A stretch of DNA of 64,000 nt from Tubiluchus corallicola. Its lineage: Eukaryota; Priapulida; Priapulimorpha; Priapulimorphida; Tubiluchidae. Where the stretch lies: the NCBI GenBank assembly GCA_030141605.1, contig JAQGDQ010000005.1, forward strand, positions 1,978,184 through 2,042,183, in the 5' to 3' direction. Below are positions 45,415-62,609 of the stretch, in pieces. Position numbers and translations under genes: made by a program. Numbering within the stretch: position 1 is the first letter of the stretch; every line of letters starts with the position of its first letter. The notes under the pieces are model-generated. The model saw nothing but the letters and a program-made list of their open reading frames with translations, was not told the origin of the DNA and searched no databases.

Positions 45415-48400
45415 CTACCACCCACTTGCGGCACCCCTAAAAATAAGAAATAAAGGTATTATAAGTTGTTAAGAATAGATAATTACGAACCTTGTTGTTC
45501 GCAATTTCGTGTTGTAACAGCCATACTTATTGTTAAAACTATAAAGTCGTGATAAGTGTAAAAGCAAATACAACAACTTTAGTATGTATATAATTTTTAA
45601 GCATAGTATGCAAGCTTCTGAAACCAAAGTTCATTATTGTTCAAAATTGTAAGTCAGATTTATTTTTGACTGTTAAGTCAGACATTCAGCAATAAACTTA
45701 AGAAGTTTTTTCTGCGGCTATAAATAGAATGCATATAGGAACAACATGCTCAAACGCCCGACTGAAGGGGACTGAATTAGTTGAGGATCTGTTCCAAATT
45801 AAGGGTGCAGATTAAGCGTTTGCTTGATGTTCTTATAACTCATCGTTTGCCTGTTGAGACTGAAAGATAGGTAAAGCCATATGTTCCACGTCAAAACCGT
45901 TAATGATGGAATAAGCACGCACATTCAATAAATCTTTTAACCCATGTCCAAAATAAACGAAATGTGATAAAGTTGCGAAAGACCCTGTATTTGAACCAGG
46001 GGCTTTAGATTATGAGTTGTACATTAGTATAATTCTAATTATTTCTTGCCAGTAATGTTTTATAGATAGATAGTTTATTGATATATAGCCAACAGGGCCT
46101 GTCAAAACAATAATGTTTCATACAATAATTTACATGCATGCTTGGATGAATTTTGCAATTGCGCATTGTATTGCAGTGTTTTGTCATCATCACTGTGCAG
46201 TGGCTGCATGCCTGCATCAGACGAAATAGTTTTTCATTTTCAGTTAAAGCAGGAACATACTGAGAAACTGTGTTCAGCATAAAGGCACGTGCAACGTTAT
46301 GTTTTGAGCAGTACAATAAAAATGATATTCATCTTCAAAAACACTGCAAACACTACTAACTCGGTTTTGACGTGGAACAGATGGCTTTACCTATCTTTCA
46401 GTCTCAACAGCCAAACGATGAGTTATAGGAACATCAAGCAAACGCTTAATCTGCACCCTTAATTTGGAACAGATCCTCAACTAATTCAGTCCGCTTCAGT
46501 CGGGCTTTGGAGCATGTTGTTCCTATATGCATTCCATTTATAGCCGCAGAAAAAACTTCTTAAGTTTTTTATTAGTATGAAAAATACTGAAATGCTCTTT
46601 TCGTGTAAAATTAACCTATCTGGCCACTGAATACTTCATTCAATTCAGCCGAAGCCAACTTAATATATGACGTCGTTTATGTTAAACAATAATTTGATTA
46701 ATTTTGCGTTGCTGTACATACAGTAACTTGGCTTTATACTCACCTGCCGGCCATGTCCAAATCTCTAGAACCAGAATACGTCATGTTAGCATTTCCTCTG
46801 TTTAGATTTGACGTGCTTAAATCCAACTTATTCTTTGCGCTCATGTACAAGAACGTTACACTGATGCCAATGATCGCTAATCCAACAACTGTAACGAATA
46901 ATAATTTATTAATTTTAATAGAAATGCAATCAAAATTGTTTTGGGGTAATACTGCGAAATGGATAGTGGTGAAAAGTTGGGTTCCACTGTTACTAGAGTA
47001 GGTAGATTAGCAAAGAAAATCCAAACCAGACGTAGAAAATAACGTAATAATAATATACTAGCAAAGGCCCGCAAAAAATTTGCGTATAAATACACTTATA
47101 ATCAATAATACGCGAACATCCTACATAGTCCTCATTTATAACGCAAAGCCAGTAACAGCTTTTAACTGAATTAAAGTTATAAGGTTATAAGCAGAGTATA
47201 GTGGATGACGTCAGAACAATGGCTTTGCGTCAGCAGTTTTCCAAGGGGAAATTGCCAAAAATGGAACATCTAATTAACTCGACGTCACTCCTCTTCGTGG
47301 AATTATCCTAAAATATTGCCCACATCGTCGTGTAGCCCTGTTCTTCCTCTTTCTAAAAAGCCATATATCTCCTTCCAAGAGTCACACTAAGCGCCGCTAA
47401 AACGTTTTTTCTACAGGCCGTTTGACCAAAATTTCGAAAAAATTTGAAGTTTGGTCCTGGAAAACGTACGTTACGGGACGCCGTGGCCCTCCCGTGAAAT
47501 CTAAATATGACTATAACGCCCACTGTTGAACTGGCTATTCAACCATTACCGGCACCACCCACGGTCCATTCCGGGTCTCTAGAAATAAGAGGTATAAGTA
47601 TGGCAAAAATGGCCGAAAAATAGCGCTTTTTGGAGGTTTTTCGCCACCCAGTCCTCCCGTTTGGCCCGATTCGAAAAATGAACCCCAATGGCAAATCTGT
47701 GGGTCCGGACCTTTCGTTTGATGCATAGATTGCCGAAAATGCTGCCGTCGTCGCAGCTGTAGCCTCGTCTGTTATATATATATATAAACCCATATATATA
47801 CCACCGAAATTAATATACAGACTTGCAAAGGCCTGCAAAAAAATTTGCGTATAAATACACTTATAATCAATAATACGCGAACATCATACATAATCCTCAT
47901 TTATAACGCAAAGCCAGCAGAAGCTTTTAGTAAATTAAAGTTATAAGGTTATCGTCGTCACTCCTCTTGGTGGACGTGTCCTAAAACATAGCCCACATCA
48001 TCGTGTAGCCCTGTTCTTCCTCTTTCTAAAGAACCATATATCTTCTTACAAGAGTCACACTAAGTGCCGAAAGAAAGTTTTTTCTGCAGGCCGTTTGACC
48101 AAAATTTCGAAAAAATTGGGAGTTGGGTCCTGTAAAACGTCCGCTACGGGACGCCGTGGCCCTTTCGCGAATTCTAAATACGCCTACTATACCCACCGCT
48201 GAACGAGCATCTATCCATAGCCAGCACTACCCATGGTCCATTTCCGTCCTCCAGAAATAAGAGGTATAAATTTTGCAAAAAACGGCCGAAAATGGTCATT
48301 TTTGGAGGTTTTTCGCCTCCGTCCGTCCCGGTGGGTCCGATTCAACAAATTAACCCCCCAATGAGACGACACTAGATCGAGACCTTTCTTTTGATATATA

Positions 48401-60917: not shown

Positions 60918-62609
60918 ATGTGCTGCTGTGGATTTTGTCGTCATAGAAGAGGAGACGTTTGGGGAGATGGAGAAAAAGCGAGCAAAGAGTACCTGCTTGT
61001 GTTGGCCTTTGTTGGCATATTCATCATGAGCACTGGAATTATATTTACTGTCAGTGGATTTTATGCAGACTTTTGGCCTGATTTTGACTTGTATCCCTAC
61101 TCCAATGAAGAGGATCACATTATAAATAAAATGTTTCGCACAAGTGGATACACAATGATCGGTAGGTTTAGTTTATAATTTACAAAATCGACCGTGTTTA
61201 ATGTTTTTCTAAACAGGGTGTCTCATAATTTACTATACACTTTTCATTTTCTATATTTTTTAAACAAACACGGCAAAATGTTTGAAAATTGGTACACATG
61301 AACTTAAATTGAGTAATTCTTTCATCCAAATTAGACAAAAATCTGGAAAGAACTAGTGCAGTAGAAGGCTTTGCTATTTTCACTGCCTTCTTCAGGGACC
61401 TCAAGAGCTTTAAAGACCAGACCAATGGCAAGTCCGGCATCTTGCGTTGAGAAAGTCTCCCACAGCTTATAAGTGGTGAGGAAGGGCTACACCTTGTTGG
61501 AAAAGTTCATTGATAATAATGAGAAAAAAGTGTGGTTCATATGGTGCCCTGCAATTTCACTAAACTTCAGTTGGTGATCGAAGAACCCATACTAAGTTGA
61601 TTCTGCACCTCTTTTCTAACATTACTGTAGCCGCCATAGCAACGGGGTTCCAGTTAAACAATAAATAAAAAGAACTGCCGAAGGCCTCTTTTGATTTATG
61701 TAAGAGCTTGTCGAGATTGGAAAAAAACTTGGAAATTAAAGTGCATAATGACTTTTGATACACCTTCTGCATTTCGTGTTTGTGTTTACACAATTTTGTA
61801 CTGCAGGCTGTTGATTTTACAAACCGATGCAATTTACTACAATTACTTTCTACCTAGCACTCAACATCTCTATTTTAATAGCAGCTCCATGTATTCTGCA
61901 ATTTTTTAAAATATTCTTAAGTTATATAGGGGTGGTTGACTCTATGACCACTTAATTAGTCTTTCGCCACCTCATCTCTACTCACTTTACTTAATCTATT
62001 GTAAGTCTGTAACCGCCTTAAAGTACTTTATATTGGAGATAAATAAACTTTTGAAAAGAAATGAAGAAATAATGCGAAAAATTAAAGTTTTTATCAAAAC
62101 CTATGAATTACCTTTTTATTTCGATACCCTGTTTCTTATCTTTTAACTAGCATCGCAGTACAAATTGGCTACTAATTCTAATTTCATTTGTTACTGACAC
62201 GTTTAGATATCTGAATTATTAACTTTTGGCATAGATTCGAATTACACACTTTTCACCACTCAAGCGAATTGTAAAGAGAAAGAAAGAGAGATACATATAA
62301 CAATAGAGATAGACACAGAAGCAGAGATAGAGGCAGAGACAGAGATAAAGATCGATATAGGACTTCATAAGAGAGACTGAAAGTCTTTTTGCTAGTACAG
62401 TAGTAGGTGGTATATGTTTGTTTTTTTTCTCAGGTGTAGGATGCTTGATAGTGTTTGTGGCTTGCATGTTCTATGGGTGCATTATTACTGGCTACCTTGA
62501 CGTTAGTACGACTCCACGATGCACGTATACGGGATGGAATAGCACCTCGACTTTATCACGATTTGACGAAGTTAATGAATTCAAATCTTCTCGTCACAAC
62601 AAAGTGTGA
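60918..62609 (+). CDS. Two-membrane-segment protein, MCCCGFC type, copy C
   Basis: Two exons, 60918-61161 and 62434-62609 (244 and 176 bp), join in phase 1 to give 139 residues. Same plan as copy B: MCCCGFCRHRRGD, segment 1 YLLVLAFVGIFIMSTGIIFT, acidic loop YADFWPDFDLYPYSNEEDHI then INKMFRTSGYTMI, segment 2 GCLIVFVACMFYGCIITGYL, tail DVSTTPRCTY and GWNSTSTL. The loop is nine residues shorter than in copy B (DDKDMIPYSYDEHHIIPWDED versus DFDLYPYSNEED). The intron holds a mariner-type remnant and a GAGA-type simple repeat. Both copies keep open frames and splice sites, so both look functional. Membrane location is inferred; function unknown. Confidence 0.86.
61214..61560 (-). mobile_element. Mariner-like transposon 3' remnant
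   Basis: The low-coordinate end reads cagggtgtctcataattta, a start typical of mariner-type terminal repeats. The minus strand reads ELFQQGVALPHHL-stop-AVGDFLNAR, then in another frame MPDLPLVWSLKLLRSLKKAV. This parallels the 'FQQDGAPPH...VRxFL' and 'SPDLTPLDFFLWGYLK' blocks of mariner-like transposases. Frame breaks and a missing partner end show decay. It lies in the intron of copy C. Confidence 0.5.
62276..62365. repeat. GAGAYA-type simple repeat
   Basis: About 90 bp of imperfect purine-rich hexamer repeat (gagata, gagaca, gcagag) in the intron of copy C, ending about 70 bp before its exon 2. Confidence 0.75.

Follow-up and report, generated by a model that had tools for sequence, protein, structure and literature searches.

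A cluster of three very probably paralogous genes for putative two-pass membrane proteins near a contig end in the priapulid Tubiluchus corallicola

The described families closest to the proteins treated here are TMEM200/DUF2371 (PF10177), which has two hydrophobic segments and a loop; neurensin/TMEM74 (PF14927), which has a two-pass layout; TMEM171 (PF15471), whose profile has 320 positions; and TMEM128 (PF20479). An autophagy role has been reported for TMEM74 (PMC5596558). The locus compared with these families lies in a 64,000-nucleotide stretch of Tubiluchus corallicola DNA (the window), the final 64 kb of contig JAQGDQ010000005.1 in an assembly of 343.5 Mb and 2344 contigs. Three loci spanning no more than 17.2 kb of the window, referred to here as genes A, B, and C, encode proteins that we regard, with moderate confidence, as an undescribed, locally duplicated paralogous family of two-pass hairpin membrane proteins, perhaps with accessory or trafficking functions. 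The contig ends 1.4 kb beyond gene C. The exons of the three genes were as follows.

48839..49007, minus strand: gene A exon 1, with the start codon, hydrophobic segment 1, a short loop, GYTIA, and a phase-1 donor
46744..46888, minus strand: gene A exon 2, with hydrophobic segment 2, LDLST, and the tail; aligns with exon 2 of genes B and C
58754..59024, plus strand: gene B exon 1, with the Cys-rich N-terminus MCCCGFCC, hydrophobic segment 1, an acidic loop, DHIM, GYTMV, and a phase-1 donor
59862..60037, plus strand: gene B exon 2, with hydrophobic segment 2, LDVST, the tail, and the stop codon
60918..61161, plus strand: gene C exon 1, with the Cys-rich N-terminus MCCCGFC, hydrophobic segment 1, an acidic loop, DHII, GYTMI, and a phase-1 donor
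62434..62609, plus strand: gene C exon 2, with hydrophobic segment 2, LDVST, the tail, and the stop codon

The products of genes A, B, and C had three motifs in common, DH(V/I), GYT(M/I), and, after segment 2, LD(L/V)ST, and each contained two segments with a mean Kyte-Doolittle hydropathy of >1.6 over 19 residues. The spliced products of genes B and C were 148 and 139 amino acids long, respectively. All introns were of the GT...AG type, and the first intron was in phase 1 in every gene, lying directly after GYTIA in gene A, GYTMV in gene B, and GYTMI in gene C. These sites occupied the same position in the alignment, two residues past GYT(M/I), and the alignment was ungapped from GYT to the intron. 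A first-pass annotation of this DNA had described three small genes with two hydrophobic segments and common motifs, each with a phase-1 intron right after GYT-(M/I)-x; the spliced models confirmed both points, the former together with the hydropathy calculations and the latter together with the alignment.

Gene A and the B/C pair very likely share a common ancestor, as judged from their aligned sequences. The local alignment scores were 90 for A-B and 91 for A-C. When A was shuffled so as to preserve either the pattern of hydrophobic and polar residues or the composition of 10-residue windows, z scores of 10.3 to 10.9 were obtained, and no shuffle scored as high (0/5000 in each of four tests); when B or C was shuffled in the same two ways, the z scores against A were 8.2 to 11.5 (0/2000 in each of four tests). 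In control comparisons, A, B, and C were set against the genome's own neurensin and its two TMEM200-type proteins, with z scores of -0.6 to 4.8, and that neurensin against the two TMEM200-type proteins gave 0.7 to 4.0. In addition, both exons of A matched those of B/C in order. Several results weighed in the other direction. The identity of A to B/C in the alignment was only 29% and 26%, and single-sequence phmmer searches within the window gave marginal expectation values (E): with A as the query, B exon 1 was found at an E of 0.0049 and C exon 1 at 0.012, and with C as the query, A exon 1 was found at 0.032, next to an unrelated-looking frame at 14576-14785 (E, 0.049) that had no Pfam match and no other sign of kinship to the three genes. 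The exon 2 pairs of A with B/C had E values of 1.4 to 6.7 or were absent among the matches listed. The case for homology is therefore built on the whole-length scores and the shared intron, not on the single-exon phmmer matches. The earlier proposal of common descent rather than convergence was thus borne out by the whole-length shuffle statistics and by the shared position and phase of the intron.

Genes B and C were much closer to each other, with the same residue in 111 of 139 aligned codons. Changes at codon positions 1, 2, and 3 numbered 20, 12, and 52, respectively, over these codons. The nonsynonymous divergence (dN) was about 0.12 and the synonymous divergence (dS) was 0.79 to 1.11 by three methods, giving dN/dS ratios of 0.11 (NG86 and YN00) and 0.15 (maximum likelihood). 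Because of this third-position bias and the dN/dS of 0.11 to 0.15, B and C are coding genes under purifying selection. A BLASTN comparison of the two regions (E ≤ 0.01) located the similarity in the coding exons, including their splice edges, and in one 34-nucleotide upstream block. The upstream segments compared were as follows.

58354..58753, plus strand: 400 bp 5' of gene B, which can be aligned with the corresponding segment 5' of gene C
60518..60917, plus strand: 400 bp 5' of gene C, the counterpart of 58354..58753

The global alignment of these two segments scored 16.5 (shuffle mean, -41.0), and none of 1000 shuffles scored as high; the best local block was 34 nucleotides long and starts AACAAAATACTGAC. 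The introns of B and C were marginally alignable, with a score that was reached in 9 of 200 shuffles, and over the 400 bp 3' of the genes there was no similarity above chance (237 of 500 shuffles as high). This pattern fits a tandem duplication of whole genes with the upstream region kept, and the duplication would be old, because dS is about 0.8 to 1.1. Despite synonymous sites near saturation, the two 400-bp segments were still alignable. The similarity hints that B and C have a promoter or 5' untranslated region in common that has been conserved; a relic of the duplication is also possible. On the sequence of events that we propose, one old duplication would have separated A from the ancestor of B and C, and a later tandem duplication would have given rise to B and C.

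At the sensitivity used, searches of the assembly revealed a single three-gene cluster, in a contig that stops 1.4 kb after gene C. A whole-assembly search with A as the query found the two exons of A itself (exon 1 at an E of 1e-30) and one further place, a match on C1174 (E, 0.29) that was read by eye and taken as chance. The search with C as the query found only the exons of B and C. Since A and C missed each other genome-wide, single-query searches could overlook a relative that has diverged as far as A and C have from each other. A consensus query made by hand from A, B, and C was also searched against the 343.5-Mb assembly, with only the best candidates scored (six here). It gave seven pieces, which fell in all six exons of the three genes, and among the candidates scored nothing else appeared at an E of ≤10; A exon 2 was found at an E of 0.014, and a still more distant copy could escape. 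Scanning of the 90 kb 5' of the window with an A/B/C profile revealed no additional copy, the best other match having an E of 0.98; the more distant part of the contig was covered by the genome-wide searches only.

A whole-genome search for the pattern GYT(M/I)xx followed by a phase-1 donor gave 20 places, 3 of which were genes A, B, and C; a control with the reversed pattern gave 17. No further relative was present among the 10 of the 17 extra places that were inspected, each of which had a profile score of ≤2.2 bits over the whole sequence, and 8 of these 10 carried in-frame stops within 90 codons before the motif. One of the eight, L040, had DHVV a few residues before GYTI; its true coding frame was a different one, for a 7tm_1 receptor (E of 2.3e-6, narrowly short of the cut-off), and no matching second exon was found in the 2251 bases after it. 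The two fully open places, L041 and L042, looked by eye like other membrane proteins. The suggestion that the family is expanding in tandem thus held only weakly: one B/C duplication supports it, but that duplication is old (dS, about 0.8 to 1.1), and no further copy was listed in the assembly.

No family reached its cut-off in a Pfam scan of the A, B, and C proteins and the consensus core, and a PDB sequence search with C and A gave no sensible match (best E values of 0.19 and 0.73). These results bear out, with respect to Pfam for all three proteins and to PDB sequences for proteins A and C only, the earlier statement that the proteins could not be placed in a known family. No description of such a family turned up in the literature, in a partial collection not searchable by sequence. 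The top Pfam matches, all below their cut-offs, were to TMEM171 (gene A; E, 0.008), TMEM128 (gene B; E, 0.031), and DUF2964 (gene C; E, 0.1), and several generic or bacterial membrane models gave similar E values, including holin and HlyIII for A.

There is, in our judgment, an even chance that the family is widespread in related animals and merely missing from Pfam, in which case the cluster would be an ordinary conserved small gene set. The purifying selection on B and C fits an old, useful gene, and Pfam misses invertebrate families, which counts for this explanation. A narrower reading, which we hold only tentatively, is that this two-pass family is undescribed and clade restricted, is present as one three-gene cluster in which B and C share an upstream control region that was retained and carry acylated N-terminal cysteines, and serves a clade-specific membrane function. 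Small orphan families of this sort are ordinary in animal genomes.

It is rather unlikely that A, B, and C form a fast-evolving remote branch of TMEM200/DUF2371, TMEM171, or neurensin/TMEM74. All of these have the segment-loop-segment layout, and gene A had matches below threshold to TMEM171 (E, 0.008), DUF2371 (E, 2.6), and neurensin (E, 4.7). The TMEM171 match, the best Pfam match of A, ran over residues 6 to 63 and scored 15.7 bits against a cut-off of 27, and no TMEM171 over the cut-off was found in the genome. The DUF2371 and neurensin matches of A scored 8.8 bits (cut-off, 22.9) and 7.4 bits (cut-off, 27.7), respectively, and B and C were not listed for either family, at an E of ≤10 in the case of neurensin. 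The TMEM128 match of B, its best, covered residues 85 to 129, i.e., the second segment only, and scored 15.2 bits against a cut-off of 23.9. No curated cut-off was therefore reached, and generic and bacterial membrane models scored about equally. In pairwise comparisons, B against a TMEM200-type protein of the same genome (L033) gave z scores of 4.7 to 4.8 and A against the genome's neurensin gave 2.5 to 4.2, with 'GLLLFGVGCTLVVVGYYIP' in gene A resembling 'NLLIFGLIAILVGYLVP' in that neurensin; however, the neurensin and L033 themselves gave 2.9 to 4.0, so a z score near 4 is hairpin background, and B and C against the neurensin gave only -0.6 to 0.5. With a three-row profile, the hhalign probability was 1.5 against neurensin and 5.1 against the other TMEM200-type protein (L034), the latter pairing segment 1 with segment 2 of that protein.

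The genome also holds a clear neurensin/TMEM74 gene of its own (E, 4e-27) on another contig and two DUF2371/TMEM200 genes over the cut-off (31.8 and 26.1 bits), in all of which the matched hairpin lies in one open frame with no intron. The neurensin has a long N-terminal region and its hairpin in a single frame, whereas A, B, and C have an intron before segment 2; this single-frame hairpin is a point of comparison with the genome's own neurensin and not a defining rule of neurensin/TMEM74. The two TMEM200-type members are long-tailed, their open frames having 668 and 540 codons. Because these clear genes lie elsewhere and have intronless hairpins, A, B, and C are not the genome's copies of neurensin or TMEM200. 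Very remote ancestry may explain the hairpin layout that these proteins have in common, as may the mere demands of two packed helices.

The explanation that A and B/C are unrelated and that their common motifs arose by convergence of small hydrophobic hairpins is highly improbable and already disfavoured, since the low identity, the fact that neither A nor C, used as the sole query against the whole assembly, listed the other, and the marginal single-exon E values (0.005 to 6.7) are set against z scores of 8.2 to 11.5 with the hydrophobic pattern or local composition kept, an ungapped match through GYT up to an intron of the same phase, two exons matching in order at loci within 17.2 kb, and a consensus query, itself built from A, B, and C, whose listed matches fell in each of the six exons and nowhere else.

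For the family as we interpret it, that is, as undescribed paralogous two-pass proteins, a topology with both ends in the cytosol and the loop between the segments outside or lumenal is fairly probable on the basis of charge distribution. The loops of B and C were acidic, with D/E-to-K/R counts of 9 to 3 and 6 to 2, respectively, and their N termini were balanced, with K/R-to-D/E counts of 4 to 4 and 5 to 4; the tails were mixed. The acidic loops and balanced N termini weakly suggest that both ends are inside. In B and C, the cluster of cysteines at the N terminus would be fatty-acylated at the membrane, the MCCCGFC start being presumably an acylation site, and the short tail would be used for protein contacts. 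The proteins would be small accessory or trafficking proteins that pack against a partner membrane protein or a vesicle component. Of the possible roles, an accessory, packing, or trafficking one is the most likely, because there is no recognisable catalytic domain and because of the analogy with TMEM74, but it is put forward with low confidence.

Several features weighed against parts of this interpretation. The charge bias was modest: the K/R-to-D/E counts of gene A were 2 to 3 in the N terminus and 1 to 2 in the loop, and the tail of B had 3 K/R to 5 D/E, with no more K/R than the loop of B. Each C-terminal tail contained an N-x-S/T sequon (NMT in A and NST in B and C), which fits a lumenal tail. 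The cysteine cluster was absent from gene A, so acylation cannot be a family trait, and no sequence feature pointed to a specific partner.

The cluster adds a small, well-supported paralogous family unplaced by Pfam, with a shared intron as a marker of ancestry, and the three proteins are a clean seed for profile searches. Should it prove clade restricted, the family would exemplify the origin of a new gene followed by duplication in place; a widespread family would instead be one that Pfam lacks. No current view would be overturned in either case.

The 3' end of gene A allowed two models, which differed in the following features.

46740..46742, minus strand: TGA that follows gene A exon 2 immediately and in frame, giving a simpler alternative gene end and a product of 105 amino acids
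45415..45436, minus strand: possible gene A exon 3, encoding GAASGW and a stop codon; optional, with no counterpart in genes B and C

The first-pass annotation had extended gene A to 45415. Such an extent is possible via the third exon, because its donor, GGCAG|GTGAGT, looks strong (the acceptor is TTTTTAG), and it adds six residues, for a product of 111 amino acids. The extension is not needed, because exon 2 reads in frame straight into the TGA at 46742-46740, which gives the two-exon layout of B and C; the open frame at 46740-47006 (minus strand) terminates in ...DMAGR followed by this stop.

The surroundings of gene A contained several repeats. An inverted repeat at 45691-46570, with 209-nucleotide arms that were 96% complementary and 462 nucleotides apart, lay just 3' of exon 2, in the possible intron 2; it is possibly a non-autonomous transposon, or else the product of a recent inverted duplication. 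Intron 1 contained, at 47073-48454, two copies of a unit with four stretches that were 76 to 95% alike at a spacing of 672 to 765 bp, and a long (GA)n run lay near this duplicated unit. Between genes A and B, open frames at 56489-57609 resembled, by eye, a reverse transcriptase-type remnant of a long interspersed nuclear element; a Pfam search with the frame at 56916-57332 in this stretch gave no match.

In a Pfam scan of ten open frames of the window, matches over the cut-off were to RRP7, an EGF-repeat/trypsin gene, INTS15, and ECSIT (two frames); one frame had a Tom22 match under its cut-off, and four of the ten had no Pfam match. The Pfam-matched neighbours are ordinary animal genes. The EGF-repeat gene, at 14942-17869, had ten EGF stretches and a trypsin domain, all within one open frame of 975 codons; an EGF-repeat gene without introns seems unusual. 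Near the contig end, inverted repeats flanked a (TA)n core at 63467-63702, which may be the reason that the assembly stops there.

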